Source of the DNA: Clostridiales bacterium
GTDB taxonomy: Bacteria; Bacillota; Clostridia; Christensenellales; Borkfalkiaceae
Assembly (NCBI GenBank): GCA_015055805.1
Contig: SVHN01000011.1
Location: 1-61,196, forward strand
Length of the DNA: 61,196 bases
Direction of reading: 5' to 3'
Shown here: positions 6,526 through 52,199 of the stretch, one piece after another
How the letters are laid out: each line of letters opens with the position of its first letter
Numbering within the stretch: position 1 is the first letter of the stretch
Program-made: the position numbers and the translations under genes
The notes under the pieces: generated by a model
Database searches by the model: none
What the model saw: only the letters and a program-made list of their open reading frames with translations
Told to the model about the DNA's origin: nothing

Positions 6526-6652
6526 AATAAGGGGTTAGATACAAGTGTGGCTAGGCTCGAAAAAGGGTTTGGACTGATTTGACCTTGTTGGTCACGAAGG
6601 TCAAATCCCTTTTTCAGTAAACGACGCCACACGCCGTATATAAGCCCTTATT
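6526..6652 (-). repeat. Structured intergenic element, copy A (starts at the asnS stop codon)
   Basis: One of two related elements (see 49920-50044). The ends form a perfect 8-bp stem AATAAGGG/CCCTTATT. Next come the shared 12-base stretch GTTAGATACAAG (also in copy B), a 7-bp stem GTGTGGC/GCCACAC, a stem GAAAAAGG/CCTTTTTC and an 11-bp stem GATTTGACCTT/AAGGTCAAATC. Read on the minus strand, the element begins at the asnS stop codon (TAATAAGGG) and ends CTTGTATCTAACCCCTTA. There is no long T-run after the hairpins, so it is not a standard terminator. Confidence 0.8.
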
Positions 6653-8039
6653 AAATATTGCTGCCCACGGTTCTCGGAAACGGCAACACATCACGGATAT
6701 TTGAAATACCGGTTAAATACATTATCATTCTTTCAAAGCCTAAGCCGAAACCTGAGTGGATAACACCACCGTATTTTCTTAAATCTAGATAGCAACTGTA
6801 ATCTTCTTTATTAAGACCGCACTCAGCCATTCTCTGCTCTAAAATATCCATTCTTTCTTCCCTTTGACTTCCGCCGACGAGTTCGCCGATACCGGGAACG
6901 AGAAGATCGCTTGCAGCAACCGTCTTTTTATCGTCGTTAAGGCGCATATAAAAGGCTTTAATTTCCTTGGGATAGTCGGTCAAGAATACCGGCTTTTTGA
7001 ATACTTCTTCGGTAATATAACGTTCGTGTTCACTTTGAAGATCCACACCCCAATAAACGGGCGCGTCGAAACGGTCTTTTACCTTTTCAAGTATTTCGAT
7101 AGCCTCGGTATAAGTTAAACGTTTGAACTCGTTGTTCTTAACGTTATTTAGTCTTTCGATAAGTCCGTTATCTACGAACTTGTTTAGGAATTCTATTTCT
7201 TCCTTACAGGTGTTCATTACCCTTTCGATAATGTATTTTACCATTGCCTCTGCGCAATCCATATCGTCGGAAAGGTCGGCAAAAGCAAGTTCAGGCTCAA
7301 TCATCCAGAATTCCGCCGCGTGACGAACGGTGTTAGAATGCTCTGCCCTAAACGTCGGTCCGAACGTGTAAACATTTGCGTATGCCATAGCAAAGTTTTC
7401 AACGTCGAGCTGACCAGATACGGTAAGACTTGCCTTTTGCCCAAAGAAGTCCTGCGCATAATCTGCCTTACCGTTCTCGGTGGGAAGATTATCTAAATCC
7501 AAAGTGGTAACTTGGAACATTGCGCCTGCGCCTTCACAGTCACTACCTGTAATAATGGGCGTATGAACGTATACGAATCCGCGTTCGTTAAAGAAACTGT
7601 GGATTGCAAACGCTGCCTCACTTCTAATCTTAAATACAGCGTTAAAGGTATTAGTCCTTGGACGTAAATGCGGCATAGTGCGCAAAAACTCCATGGTATG
7701 ACGCTTTTTCTGTAACGGATAATCGGGGGTACTAGTTCCGAGTATCTCAATCGTATCAGCGTTTATTTCAAACGGCTGTTTATTTTCGGGGGTTAGAATA
7801 AGCGTTCCCGTAACCATAAGGCACGCGCCGACGTTCTGCTTTGCAACTTCGTCGTAATTATTAACCTTAGTTCTGTCAAATACTATCTGACAGTTCTTAA
7901 AGTACGAGCCGTCGTTAAGCTCGATAAACCCGAACGACTTGCTATCCCTAATGGTTCTTGCCCAACCGCAAACGGTAACCGTTTTTCCGCCAAATTCGTC
8001 ACTTGATAAAAAAATCTTTTTTAACTCTGTCCTTTTCAT
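6651..8039 (-). CDS. asnS: Asparaginyl-tRNA synthetase
   Basis: Class II aminoacyl-tRNA synthetase charging tRNA-Asn. An N-terminal OB-fold anticodon-binding domain (about residues 15-100, [20 protein letters not shown]) is followed by the catalytic domain with motif 2-like FRAEHSNT, the AsnRS-type GGSQREER and the C-terminal motif 3 [10 protein letters not shown] start at the ATG at 8039, which has AAAGGTG 6-8 bases upstream; a further in-frame GTG lies 9 bases earlier but overlaps that site. It has its own promoter (8085-8113). The stop codon is the first codon of the structured element at 6526-6652. Confidence 0.96.
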
Positions 8040-8084
8040 AAATAGCACCTTTTAAGTTATATATATTTAAAATAATACTTATGT

Positions 8085-43096: not shown

Positions 43097-43171
43097 TGGC
43101 GGTCCCACAGGGAATCGAACCCCGAACTAGCCCTTAGGAGGGGCTTGTTATATCCGTTTAACTATGGAACC
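43097..43171 (-). tRNA. tRNA-Arg, anticodon CCT (reads AGG)
   Basis: Folded by hand on the minus strand: acceptor GGTTCCA/TGGGACC (one G-T), D-stem GTTA/TAAC, anticodon stem AGCCC/GGGCT with loop CTCCTAA (anticodon CCT), T-stem CGGGG/CCCTG with loop TTCGATT, discriminator G and an encoded CCA. Cloverleaf complete. Followed by its own terminator. Confidence 0.95.
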
Positions 43172-49919: not shown

Positions 49920-50044
49920 CTTTAAGGGGTTAGATACAAGCAAGAGCAGGAAAACTAGGATTTACGAAGTGCGCGTACTTGCCGTACGCAATCTAGTAAA
50001 TCCGACGTTTGACGAACTATTGCGCAGTAGATAAACCCTTAAAG
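49920..50044 (-). repeat. Structured intergenic element, copy B (starts at the argF stop codon)
   Basis: Related to copy A at 6526-6652. The ends form a perfect 9-bp stem CTTTAAGGG/CCCTTAAAG, where A has AATAAGGG/CCCTTATT, so the outer bases covary. GTTAGATACAAG follows unchanged. Inside are GGATTTAC/GTAAATCC and GCGTAC/GTACGC hairpins and a weaker GCAA/TTGC helix in place of A's GTGTGGC/GCCACAC. On the minus strand the element starts exactly at the argF stop codon (TAAGGG), as in copy A at asnS. The rest of the gap between the XRE terminator and argF is this element. Confidence 0.8.
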
Positions 50045-51025
50045 AAGGGTTGATAGCATAACTGCCTTTATAGTATGCATGCGGTTTTCTGCTTCGTCAA
50101 ATACTATGGACTGATTACTTTCAAACACTTCGTCGGTAACTTCCATAGCGGATAAACCGAAATTATCAAAAATATCTTTGCCGACGGTGGTTTTAAGGTC
50201 ATGGAAGGCTGGTAAGCAATGCATAAACCTACACTTTTCTCCTGCGTTATCCATTACGGTTTTGTTGACCTGATACGGTAAAAGGTCTTTTATACGCTCT
50301 GCCCAAACTTCTTGCGGTTCACCCATTGATACCCAAACGTCGGTATAAATAACGTCGGCGTTCTTTGTAGCAATCATCGGGTCTTCGATAAACTCTAACA
50401 CCGCGCCCGTGCTTTTAGCAATCTTTTTGCACTCTGCTACGAGTTCAGCGTTGGGAAAATATTTTTTCGGTGCGCAAGCAACGAAGTGCATACCCATTTT
50501 TGCGCAACCAACCATAAGTGAATTTCCCATATTGTATCTTGCATCACCCATATAGCAAAGTTTTCTGCCTTTAAGTGTGCCAAAATGTTCTTCAATAGTC
50601 ATAAAATCGGCTAGAATTTGTGTGGGGTGGAATTCGTTAGTTAGGCCGTTCCAAACGGGAACGCCTGCATACTTTGCAAGGTCTTCGACTATTTCTTGAC
50701 CGTAACCGCGGTATTCTATACCGTCGAACATTCTGCCTAAAACCCTTGCCGTATCTGCAATGCTTTCTTTCTTGCCTATCTGTGATCCCGACGGATCAAG
50801 ATAAACGGGGTGCATTCCAAGATCTGCCGCTGCCACTTCAAAACTGCAACGCGTTCTAGTGCTTGTCTTTTCAAAGACCAAGGCTATATTTTTGCCTTGC
50901 AAATACCTATGCGCCTTGCCTTTTTTCTTTTTGGCTTTTAATTGTTTTGCTAAATCTATGAGTCCTTGTATTTCTTCAGGGGTAAAATCCAAAAGTTTCA
51001 AGAAACTCTTTCCTTTCAAATTCAT
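50039..51025 (-). CDS. argF: Ornithine carbamoyltransferase
   Basis: Makes citrulline from ornithine and carbamoyl phosphate. 328 aa from the ATG at 51025 (AAGGAG 5-6 bases upstream); an in-frame TTG 27 bases earlier overlaps argD and is not needed. Carbamoyl-phosphate motif STRTRCSFE (about 56-64), [13 protein letters not shown] and the C-terminal HCLPAFHD cysteine loop. Last gene of the arginine operon; its stop codon opens the structured element at 49920-50044. Confidence 0.96.
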
Positions 51026-51035
51026 AATATTCTCC

Positions 51036-52199
51036 TTACTTTGCCGCTGCAACCATTATGACTTCTACGGCTTTTTTGAGCATTTCCATAGGAATATTAA
51101 GCGCAGGTAACAGCCTTAATTTATCCTTTGCAGTAAGGCACAGTACGCCGTTTTCTATGCACTCTGAAAGCACTTCTTTTACTGGACGAGTGGTTTTAAT
51201 ACCCACCATAAGTCCCATTCCGCTAACCGACTCTATGCCCTTAGCATTTTTTAAGGTATTAAAAACGTACTCGCCCTTAACCTTAACTTCATTTAAGAAC
51301 TCGTCGGTTAATCTTTCCACAATAGAAATTGCGCCTGCCGCGCATACGGGGTTACCGCCAAAGGTTGAGCCGTGATCACCGAAACCTAAAACGCTTTGAG
51401 TTTTCTCGTTCATCATGCAAAGCCCTATCGGAAGTCCGCCGCCAAGTCCTTTTGCGGTAGACACGACGTCGGGTTTAACGCCATAATTCATATATGCATA
51501 AAGCGCGCCCGTCCTACCGTTACCCGTTTGAACTTCGTCAACTATAAACACGAGGTCGTTATCTTTACAGATCTTTTCAACCCCTTGAACGAACTCTTTA
51601 TCTAGCCCTATAACGCCACCTTCGCCCTGTACACACTCAATCATAACAGCGCAAGCCTTGTTTTCCTTAACCGCTTTTTCAACGCTGCCTAAATCGTTTG
51701 CCGTTGCGTGAACGAAACCACCCGTTAAAGGCTGAAAAAGTTCGTGGAACTTGTCTTGTCCTGTTGCCGCTAAAGTGGTTAGCGTTCTGCCGTGAAAACT
51801 GTTTTTAAGGGTGATTATTACGTTATAGTCCTGACCTTTTTTATCCGCTGCGTACTTTCTTGCGACCTTGATTGCGCACTCGTTAGCCTCTGCGCCAGAG
51901 TTTGCAAAAAAGACTTTCTTCATGCCCGTTCTTTCGCAAAGCATTTTTGCTAGGTTTGCGCAAGGCTCGGTATAATAAAGGTTAGAAGTATGCTGAACTT
52001 TATTAAGCTGCGCTATAACCGCGTCTTTCCATATATCGTCGGATATACCGAACGCAGTTACGCCGATACCCGAACCCATATCAATATATTCTTTGCCGTC
52101 GGCTGAATAAAGAAGAGAGCCTTTGCCATTTACTATTTCTATCGGGAAACGCGCGTAAGTGTTTGCAACGTATTGTTTATCTATATCAATAAAACCCAT
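51036..52199 (-). CDS. argD: Acetylornithine aminotransferase
   Basis: PLP-dependent transamination of N-acetylglutamate semialdehyde to N-acetylornithine. 387 aa. Segments: [58 protein letters not shown] and the PLP lysine in [13 protein letters not shown] (about residue 240). Stops 11 bases before argF starts. Confidence 0.96.

Follow-up and report, generated by a model that had tools for sequence, protein, structure and literature searches.

Dispersed ~125-nt palindromic elements at gene 3' ends in a Clostridiales genome and its relatives, with outer stems that may be inverted copies of the gene end

The DNA considered here is a 61,196-nt stretch (the window) of contig C11 from a Clostridiales bacterium whose genome (G000) comprises 1.73 Mb in 20 contigs and is 95.7% complete. 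Two structured elements in this window lie against the ends of two genes, asnS and argF, and, as the initial annotation had seen, their outermost pairs have changed between the copies and yet remain complementary. What kind of element sits at a stop codon and keeps its fold while its sequence changes? The initial annotation offered three possibilities, namely a new 3'-UTR RNA, a REPIN-like palindromic element or a mobile element that targets stop codons.

Copy A (class A) occupies 6526..6652 (+), exactly as first placed, while copy B (class B) occupies 49921..50043 (+) rather than the 49920-50044 originally given. We define the + strand of the element as the one on which the far arm comes first and GTTAGATACAAG is found, a sequence indeed common to both copies as had been noticed; this strand is antisense to the host gene. 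In copy A, the far arm (AATAAGGGGTTA, 6526..6537, +) pairs with the gene-side arm (6641..6652, +) except at the variable ninth position, and the core between them (6538..6640, +) contains conserved helices and internal loops (AGATACAAG, AGGCTCG, GACCTTGTTGGTC, and CAGTAAACG). Copy B has its far arm (TTTAAGGGGTTA) at 49921..49932 (+) and its gene-side arm at 50032..50043 (+). Both host genes, whose names are those of the initial annotation, are on the minus strand: asnS (asparaginyl-tRNA synthetase, 6651..8048, -) has its 3' end inside copy A, and argF (ornithine carbamoyltransferase, 50039..51052, -) ends in copy B. The stop codon had been thought to coincide with the first base of each copy; it does lie near the element end, but not exactly there, since the asnS stop (6651-6653) shares two bases with the end of copy A, at the outer end of the gene-side arm, and the argF stop (50039-50041) lies inside the gene-side arm of copy B, at its bases 3-5. 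The only tRNA that ARAGORN found in the window is tRNA-Arg (cct) at 43097-43171 (-).

These two copies belong to a larger family. By blastn, copy A had 20 matches in its own genome at E<=0.001 and copy B had 28 at E<=1, several of them fragments, and a 13-nt pattern with <=1 mismatch had 30 matches compared with 3 when it was reversed. A covariance model built from ten class A copies (R1), which include copy A as its best-scoring match (141.9 bits), gave 45 matches at E<=0.1 when 150 of 1021 first-look candidates were scored; dropping one minus-strand self match and one 40-position fragment left 43 full-length places. Copy B is likewise one of eight input sequences of a second model (R2) and its best-scoring match (140.8 bits). 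Judged by the blastn, pattern and R1 counts, the observation is real, far above chance and larger than the initial annotation could see.

In a survey of 81 genomes with R1 at E<=0.01, using stricter filters under which weak copies are lost, 35 genomes had a match, including 18 of the 48 of good quality. Counted by rows, matches were present in 29 of 44 genomes of the genus and 6 of 37 outside it. The number per genome ranged from 0 to 39, with 39 in G000, 33 in each of G010 and G023, 29 in G007 and between 29 and 33 in G003; G015, which is 98% complete, had none. Two genomes from other families of the same order, G077 and G079, had 30 and 28 matches at E<=0.001 in a laxer search of six genomes and 23 and 3, respectively, under the stricter survey. 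The covariance-model search of own and related genomes that the initial annotation had called for thus returned many further copies, with their pairing conserved. A phage, plasmid or viral carrier was set aside, as phage and plasmid records gave no blastn match to copy A, the only query, and viral contigs gave none to the one exact pattern searched.

Copies A and B fold far more strongly than their shuffles on either strand, both as RNA (z -5.1 to -8.1) and as DNA (z -4.0 to -6.9). Across ten own-genome class A copies, double changes occurred in 27 of 42 pairs, compared with a shuffled mean of 16.7 and none of 500 shuffles as high, and not one of the 42 pairs varied on one side only; in slid controls, the paired fraction of these copies dropped from 95% to 34-45%. 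One of the five covariation measures, the number of further pair types, was not unusual (38 versus 34.7 in shuffles, reached by 68 of 500). Eight class B copies had double changes in 15 of 42 pairs, a count taken without a shuffle control. Alignments and folds indicate that the two classes have the outer part in common and differ in the inner hairpin.

The imperfect pairs point to the strand that folds. Read on the + strand, G-T outnumbered A-C by 68 to 15 in the arms and by 301 to 42 over all stems of 123 aligned copies (103 to 41 once two nearly fixed G-T pairs were removed), and by 54 to 15 in the arms of a second set from outside the genus, although the model and alignment were built for the + strand and bias these counts towards G-T. 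The six class B rows gave only 8 G-T and 5 A-C. Because G-T outnumbers A-C among imperfect pairs, the folding strand is probably the one antisense to the host gene.

The relation to genes is one-sided. For the genus, 89 loci from nine genomes, represented for the relatives by the better matches listed in the survey, were searched with R1 and R2; overlapping matches of both models and strands were merged to 131, and removal of two duplicates left 129 copies. In 105 of 129 copies, an ORF of >=80 codons that reads into the element ended between -200 and +40 nt of its right end; for the left end, the same was true of 30. Stops on the right clustered at -5 to +3 and at +12, such that 73 of 129 copies had a stop at -5 to +12 on the right, compared with 3 of 129 at the mirror position on the left; two of these 73 (offsets 5 and 6) belong to ORFs traversing the remains of older copies. 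Of 68 matches from outside the genus, a few of which come from the same family, 67 were used; a stop was found at -5 to +12 on the right in 30 of these 67 and on the left in 3 of 67. TAA made up 72 of the 73 element-adjacent stops in the genus. As background, TAA ends 38 of the 49 ORFs that reach 150+ codons in the window and, with element-adjacent ORFs included, 190 of the 233 that reach 200+ codons in the fetched loci. In the second set, stops within -10 to +15 were TAA in 26 of 37 cases, TGA in 8 and TAG in 3; the TAA preference is not a general rule.

Other hosts include groEL-, dnaK-, fabG-, yebC-, hydrogenase- and galE-like genes (named from C-terminal residues or translations). Given these other hosts, the amino-acid and tRNA theme of the two window genes looks like chance, as the initial annotation had allowed. 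In own-genome contigs with >=2 copies, 40 of 41 copies share the majority strand of their contig, compared with ~80% of long window ORFs by a rough count; this replication-strand bias is suggestive only, as units within arrays are not independent. At two loci, L253 (G007) and L273 (G016), genes that we name acyl-CoA-ligase-like end in ...SGKIQRNKL with the TAA of the element as their stop, and the insertion may have trimmed the protein; the same far arm is found in the own genome behind a different gene (L148).

We then compared the arms with the rest of the element. A unit of ~125 nt consists of a 12-nt arm, a ~101-nt core and a second 12-nt arm. In the 125 copies that remained after filtering by length and flank, with arm positions numbered from 0 at the outermost, positions 1-4 were Watson-Crick pairs in 114-120, position 0 was paired in 103 and position 8 in only 58. 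Beyond the arms, pairing fell to 64 of 125 at -1 and to 24-44 at -2 to -14, a sharp boundary that the search did not impose, because positions beyond the trimmed model edge were unmodelled.

In most genomes examined, the arms pair at each locus while varying largely independently of the core, and they differ even between copies with similar cores, less so in G010. In G077, where 24 of 25 fetched matches passed the length filter, 22 of the 24 copies were paired at >=7 of 8 outer positions, and 23 distinct outer 8-mers were present. Arm identity in this genome was 0.52 for cores >=90% identical (6 pairs) versus 0.54 for cores 50-70% identical (71 pairs); by this measure, arm similarity in G077 is independent of core similarity. 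In G000 and G003, arm identity was 0.80 for cores >=95% identical (20 and 7 pairs, respectively) and ~0.5 at 90-95% (8 and 9 pairs). The arms of G010 stayed similar, at 0.79 for 90-95% core identity (7 pairs) and 0.60-0.65 below, and those of G023 showed little trend (0.65 to 0.57-0.64).

Some arms recur: AATAAGGG is present in 6 of 39 own-genome copies, TTTAAGGG in 6 of 26 copies in G003 and TTAAACGG in 6 of 20 in G010, and identical cores are found in the own genome with two arm types. Most arms of G079 (L419-L438) are of one CTGACGG type, and TGA stops occur within or close to the arm; elsewhere, arms are variable and rich in TAA. Since arm types recur within genomes, in most of G079 and in part of G000, G003 and G010, arms can apparently also travel with the element. 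Both arm types of the window copies recur in the own genome, so these two copies alone do not show host copying. In 67 of 197 copies, the gene-side arm contains the stop; the far arms of these copies are complementary to the ORF-ending bases at 236 of 268 positions, compared with an average of 130 and at most 162 when far arms were re-dealt among copies of the same offset in 2000 trials. This comparison shows that the arms are matched locus by locus; which arm came first, and whether the last codons are native, is left undecided by the matching.

Because far-arm matching cannot separate host-derived from element-brought arms, the direct case for a host origin rests on few loci. A gene that we name triosephosphate-isomerase-like, compared at 23 orthologous loci, has the full element in G000, G020 and G017, a copy that by eye looks truncated in G009 and none in the other 19. 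Its last codons in element-free G007 are CGTCAAGGCAAA TAA. These 15 nt recur in G020 and G017, where they lead directly into the core, and the far arms (TTTACCTTGACG in G020 and TTCACCTTGACG in G017) are the reverse complement of the native codons at 11 of 12 and 10 of 12 positions. These copies could descend from one old insertion, with the arms following the gene. A second gene, named NifU-like by us, was compared at 20 orthologous loci, 7 of which were included in the follow-up scan for element-free sites; in G000 it ends AAAAAGGCGTTA and its element has the far arm TAACGCCTTTTT, an element-free relative has AAAAAGGCGAAC, and the G000 gene-side arm equals that relative at 9 of 12 bases. The NifU-like gene of G011 also carries an element.

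The yebC gene (named from its C-terminal residues), fetched from part of the genomes that have it, points to the opposite origin in at least one case. Seven genomes (G000, G003, G007, G010, G019, G021 and G036) have an element at its end, 13 other fetched loci had no match and one more runs off its contig. The gene-side arm of the G003 copy, TTTAAGGG, is unlike the Glu-rich ends of element-free orthologues, and on account of this mismatch it was most likely brought by the element. Element-free yebC genes in L278, L284, L286, L288, L289 and others are followed by another conserved hairpin (ACCTTACTTGCC...TATCGGCGGTAAGGT), often with a T-run behind it, possibly a terminator, possibly a structured RNA of its own. 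For asnS, no element matched at this place in the 32 of 80 loci scanned, some of which end close behind the gene, and the closest relative found (85% identical protein) is also without one; the argF-like genes of G003 and G010 do end in an element. Hosts occupied in several genomes (argF, gdh-like, yebC and isomerase-like genes) could include vertically inherited copies with co-evolved arms. All of these comparisons are between different species, none between near-identical strains, and small later changes are therefore inseparable from the insertion itself. Dispersed copies together with element-free orthologous sites place the family among mobile DNA elements.

Tandem arrays were ambiguous with regard to mechanism. 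In distal units, we expected the far arm to be closer to the gene-proximal arm than to its own, which was so in 16 of 28 cases, with the opposite in 10 and ties in 2, and at least one array, L419, looks like a plain tandem duplication; because of this split and of the L419 duplication, arrays do not decide how the arms arise. At L249, L217, L257, L260 and L265, older element fragments (e.g. ...AAGGCTCG) adjoin the far arm of some copies, as if new insertions had occurred time and again between the gene and a copy already there. A ZMP/ZTP riboswitch (Rfam RF01750, 56.7 bits against a gathering threshold of 39) lies ~30 nt from an element copy in the own genome (L159:1441-1527, contig C18).

The arms could instead be carried by the element, with cores homogenised by gene conversion and arms that drift yet stay complementary through compensatory change or hairpin correction, no host sequence being copied at insertion. 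This reading accommodates the arm types that recur within genomes, the tracking of core similarity by arms in G010, the G003 yebC arm that seems element-brought and the identical own-genome cores with two arm types, as core conversion would give, and it is compatible with the locus-by-locus matching as well. It is harder to reconcile with isomerase-like far arms in G020 and G017 that mirror native coding sequence, with a NifU-like arm in G000 that is mostly native sequence and with the almost entirely distinct arms of G077 whatever the core similarity, and we consider it possible but rather doubtful. Selection for an mRNA function, in which the element is a 3'-UTR RNA acting as a terminator or as a translation or mRNA-stability hairpin, would explain its fixed sense relative to the gene and its closeness to the stop. 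Several hosts also look highly expressed by our own reading (groEL-, dnaK-, gdh- and argF-like genes), and E. coli REPs <=15 nt from a stop codon are reported to stall ribosomes (PMC12306157), which would suit such a function. However, the excess of G-T pairs favours the antisense strand, presence at orthologous genes is patchy, no terminator pattern was found around the first copy and Rfam had nothing on the element, either at gathering level across the window or at E<=5 on four loci. The first suggestion of the initial annotation fits in sense and position, but the strand to which the G-T excess points speaks against it, and we regard it as unlikely. An intrinsic terminator and a known RNA family were rejected on the terminator scan and the Rfam searches, respectively; the earlier dismissal of a normal terminator was right, and the lack of a T-run was borne out for the first copy by the same scan.

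Known mobile systems provide further comparisons. An integron attC site sits behind the stop of its cassette gene and has the R-box pair consensus RYYYAAC ... GTTRRRY. A related site whose bottom strand folds and is then acted on by a tyrosine recombinase would account for hairpins directly behind genes, conserved unpaired bases and tandem arrays. As described for attC (PMC2727003), structure is kept more than sequence, unpaired bases are present and the antisense strand is favoured, and in our element, too, one strand probably folds preferentially (in class A; class B has too few rows). In contrast with attC, the element lacks an R-box pair and cassettes, is dispersed at single genes and has variable arms; by eye, only one end resembles GTTRRRY, on the inverted side, so the initial annotation was correct to dismiss a canonical attC, and array units follow one another nearly end to end without cassette genes. 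Tyrosine recombinases (PF00589) were present in at least 44 genomes, at least 27 of them of the genus among the matches listed, and did not track copy number by eye: G021 (24 copies, 58% complete) had none among the matches listed, and G001, G002, G004, G005 and G013 had no R1 match yet had Xer-sized enzymes. An attC-like origin is thus very unlikely in our view. REP and REPIN elements are tied to Y1 (RAYT) transposases, and movement by such an enzyme, or descent from IS200/IS605 relics, would also produce dispersed palindromes at gene ends, as clusters and singletons. REPs are described as 20-40 bp palindromes with a GTAG or CGTC tag (PMC3733652), and accounts of REPs and REPINs as non-autonomous dispersed palindromes, some just behind stops, single or clustered (PMC12306157, PMC3116915), resemble what we find. 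The element differs in its length of ~125 nt, in forming one long hairpin with ends that differ in each copy and in its fixed orientation to the gene. Moreover, Y1 (PF01797) had no match in the copy-rich genomes G000, G007, G010 and G023 (96, 94, 69 and 76% complete); it was found in 17 of 81 genomes, including one gene in copy-rich G003, and did not track copy number by eye. The REPIN-like suggestion is apt as to general kind but fails in its tie to Y1, and mobilisation of this type appears extremely improbable. Reverse transcriptase (PF00078) had no match in G000, G003, G007, G010 and G023 and was present in 12 of 81 genomes, and a group II intron or other retroelement was rejected on the lack of a match in these five copy-rich genomes. 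In all enzyme searches, incomplete genomes leave room for a missed gene.

ERIC/IRU (RU-1) elements are similar in form. They are described as 127-bp imperfect palindromes of the MITE type that are non-autonomous and have no known mover, and some ERIC/RU elements extend or alter gene 3' ends (PMC2759123). Our element is likewise a dispersed, non-autonomous imperfect palindrome of about this length; however, its ends vary and pair mutually, a distinction from ERIC drawn by description rather than by sequence. TA ends with a TA duplication are reported for ERIC/RU, and inspection by eye of the sequence flanking our copies revealed no direct target-site duplication. The element is thus like REP and ERIC in kind, while failing the REP tests made here.

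The reading that we favour, at a little better than even confidence, is that the family consists of non-autonomous ~125-nt mobile palindromes at gene 3' ends, in which the outer stem often arises by copying the gene end in inverted orientation. Of the three original suggestions, a mobile element that targets stop codons is the best and is well supported by the fixed orientation, the one-sided stops, the patchy distribution and the element-free sites. From the sequence comparisons, we infer that host sequence, reaching up to the last four codons, often supplies the gene-side arm and that the far arm is a reverse-complement copy of it, made at insertion or soon after. Under this proposal, the element would insert at or next to the stop codon, with the same end facing the gene. 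By the simplest route, the core on the antisense strand, or its nascent complement, would fold back at the gene end, a polymerase would copy ~12 nt of the gene end in the inverted direction by template switching or fold-back extension, and the copied strand would then rejoin the downstream DNA.

Template-switch (quasipalindrome) mutation is described as a single step that yields both reverse-complement copies and double compensatory changes (PMC8794818, PMC7202029, PMC3820800), as we propose for the element. It predicts double changes without one-sided variants (PMC8794818), which is the pattern in the ten copies. Template switching is, however, a mutation process and not a mobile family, and the inverted stretch here is near-constant at ~12 nt and accompanies a dispersing core; neither this length nor the spread to stop codons follows from template switching alone. 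We suggest, tentatively and at less than even confidence, a new insertion mode in which a hairpin recognises stop codons and joins to them through fold-back synthesis. The gene end would thereby be left with an inverted 12-nt copy of itself in place of the direct target duplication of known transposons, and each host gene with a custom stem. Our literature searches, limited to open-licence papers, turned up no such family or footprint by name among the papers listed.

To our knowledge, the bacterial mobile elements described so far either duplicate their target directly or leave no duplication. If the proposed mode is true, an inverted target copy of near-constant length, taken from the last codons and the stop, would set its footprint apart from theirs. 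With so many copies at hand, genome sequences alone suffice to test the idea. Such insertions would also offer a natural route by which genes gain a structured hairpin directly behind the stop codon, and would bear on how gene ends acquire terminators, REP-like signals and possibly attC-like sites.
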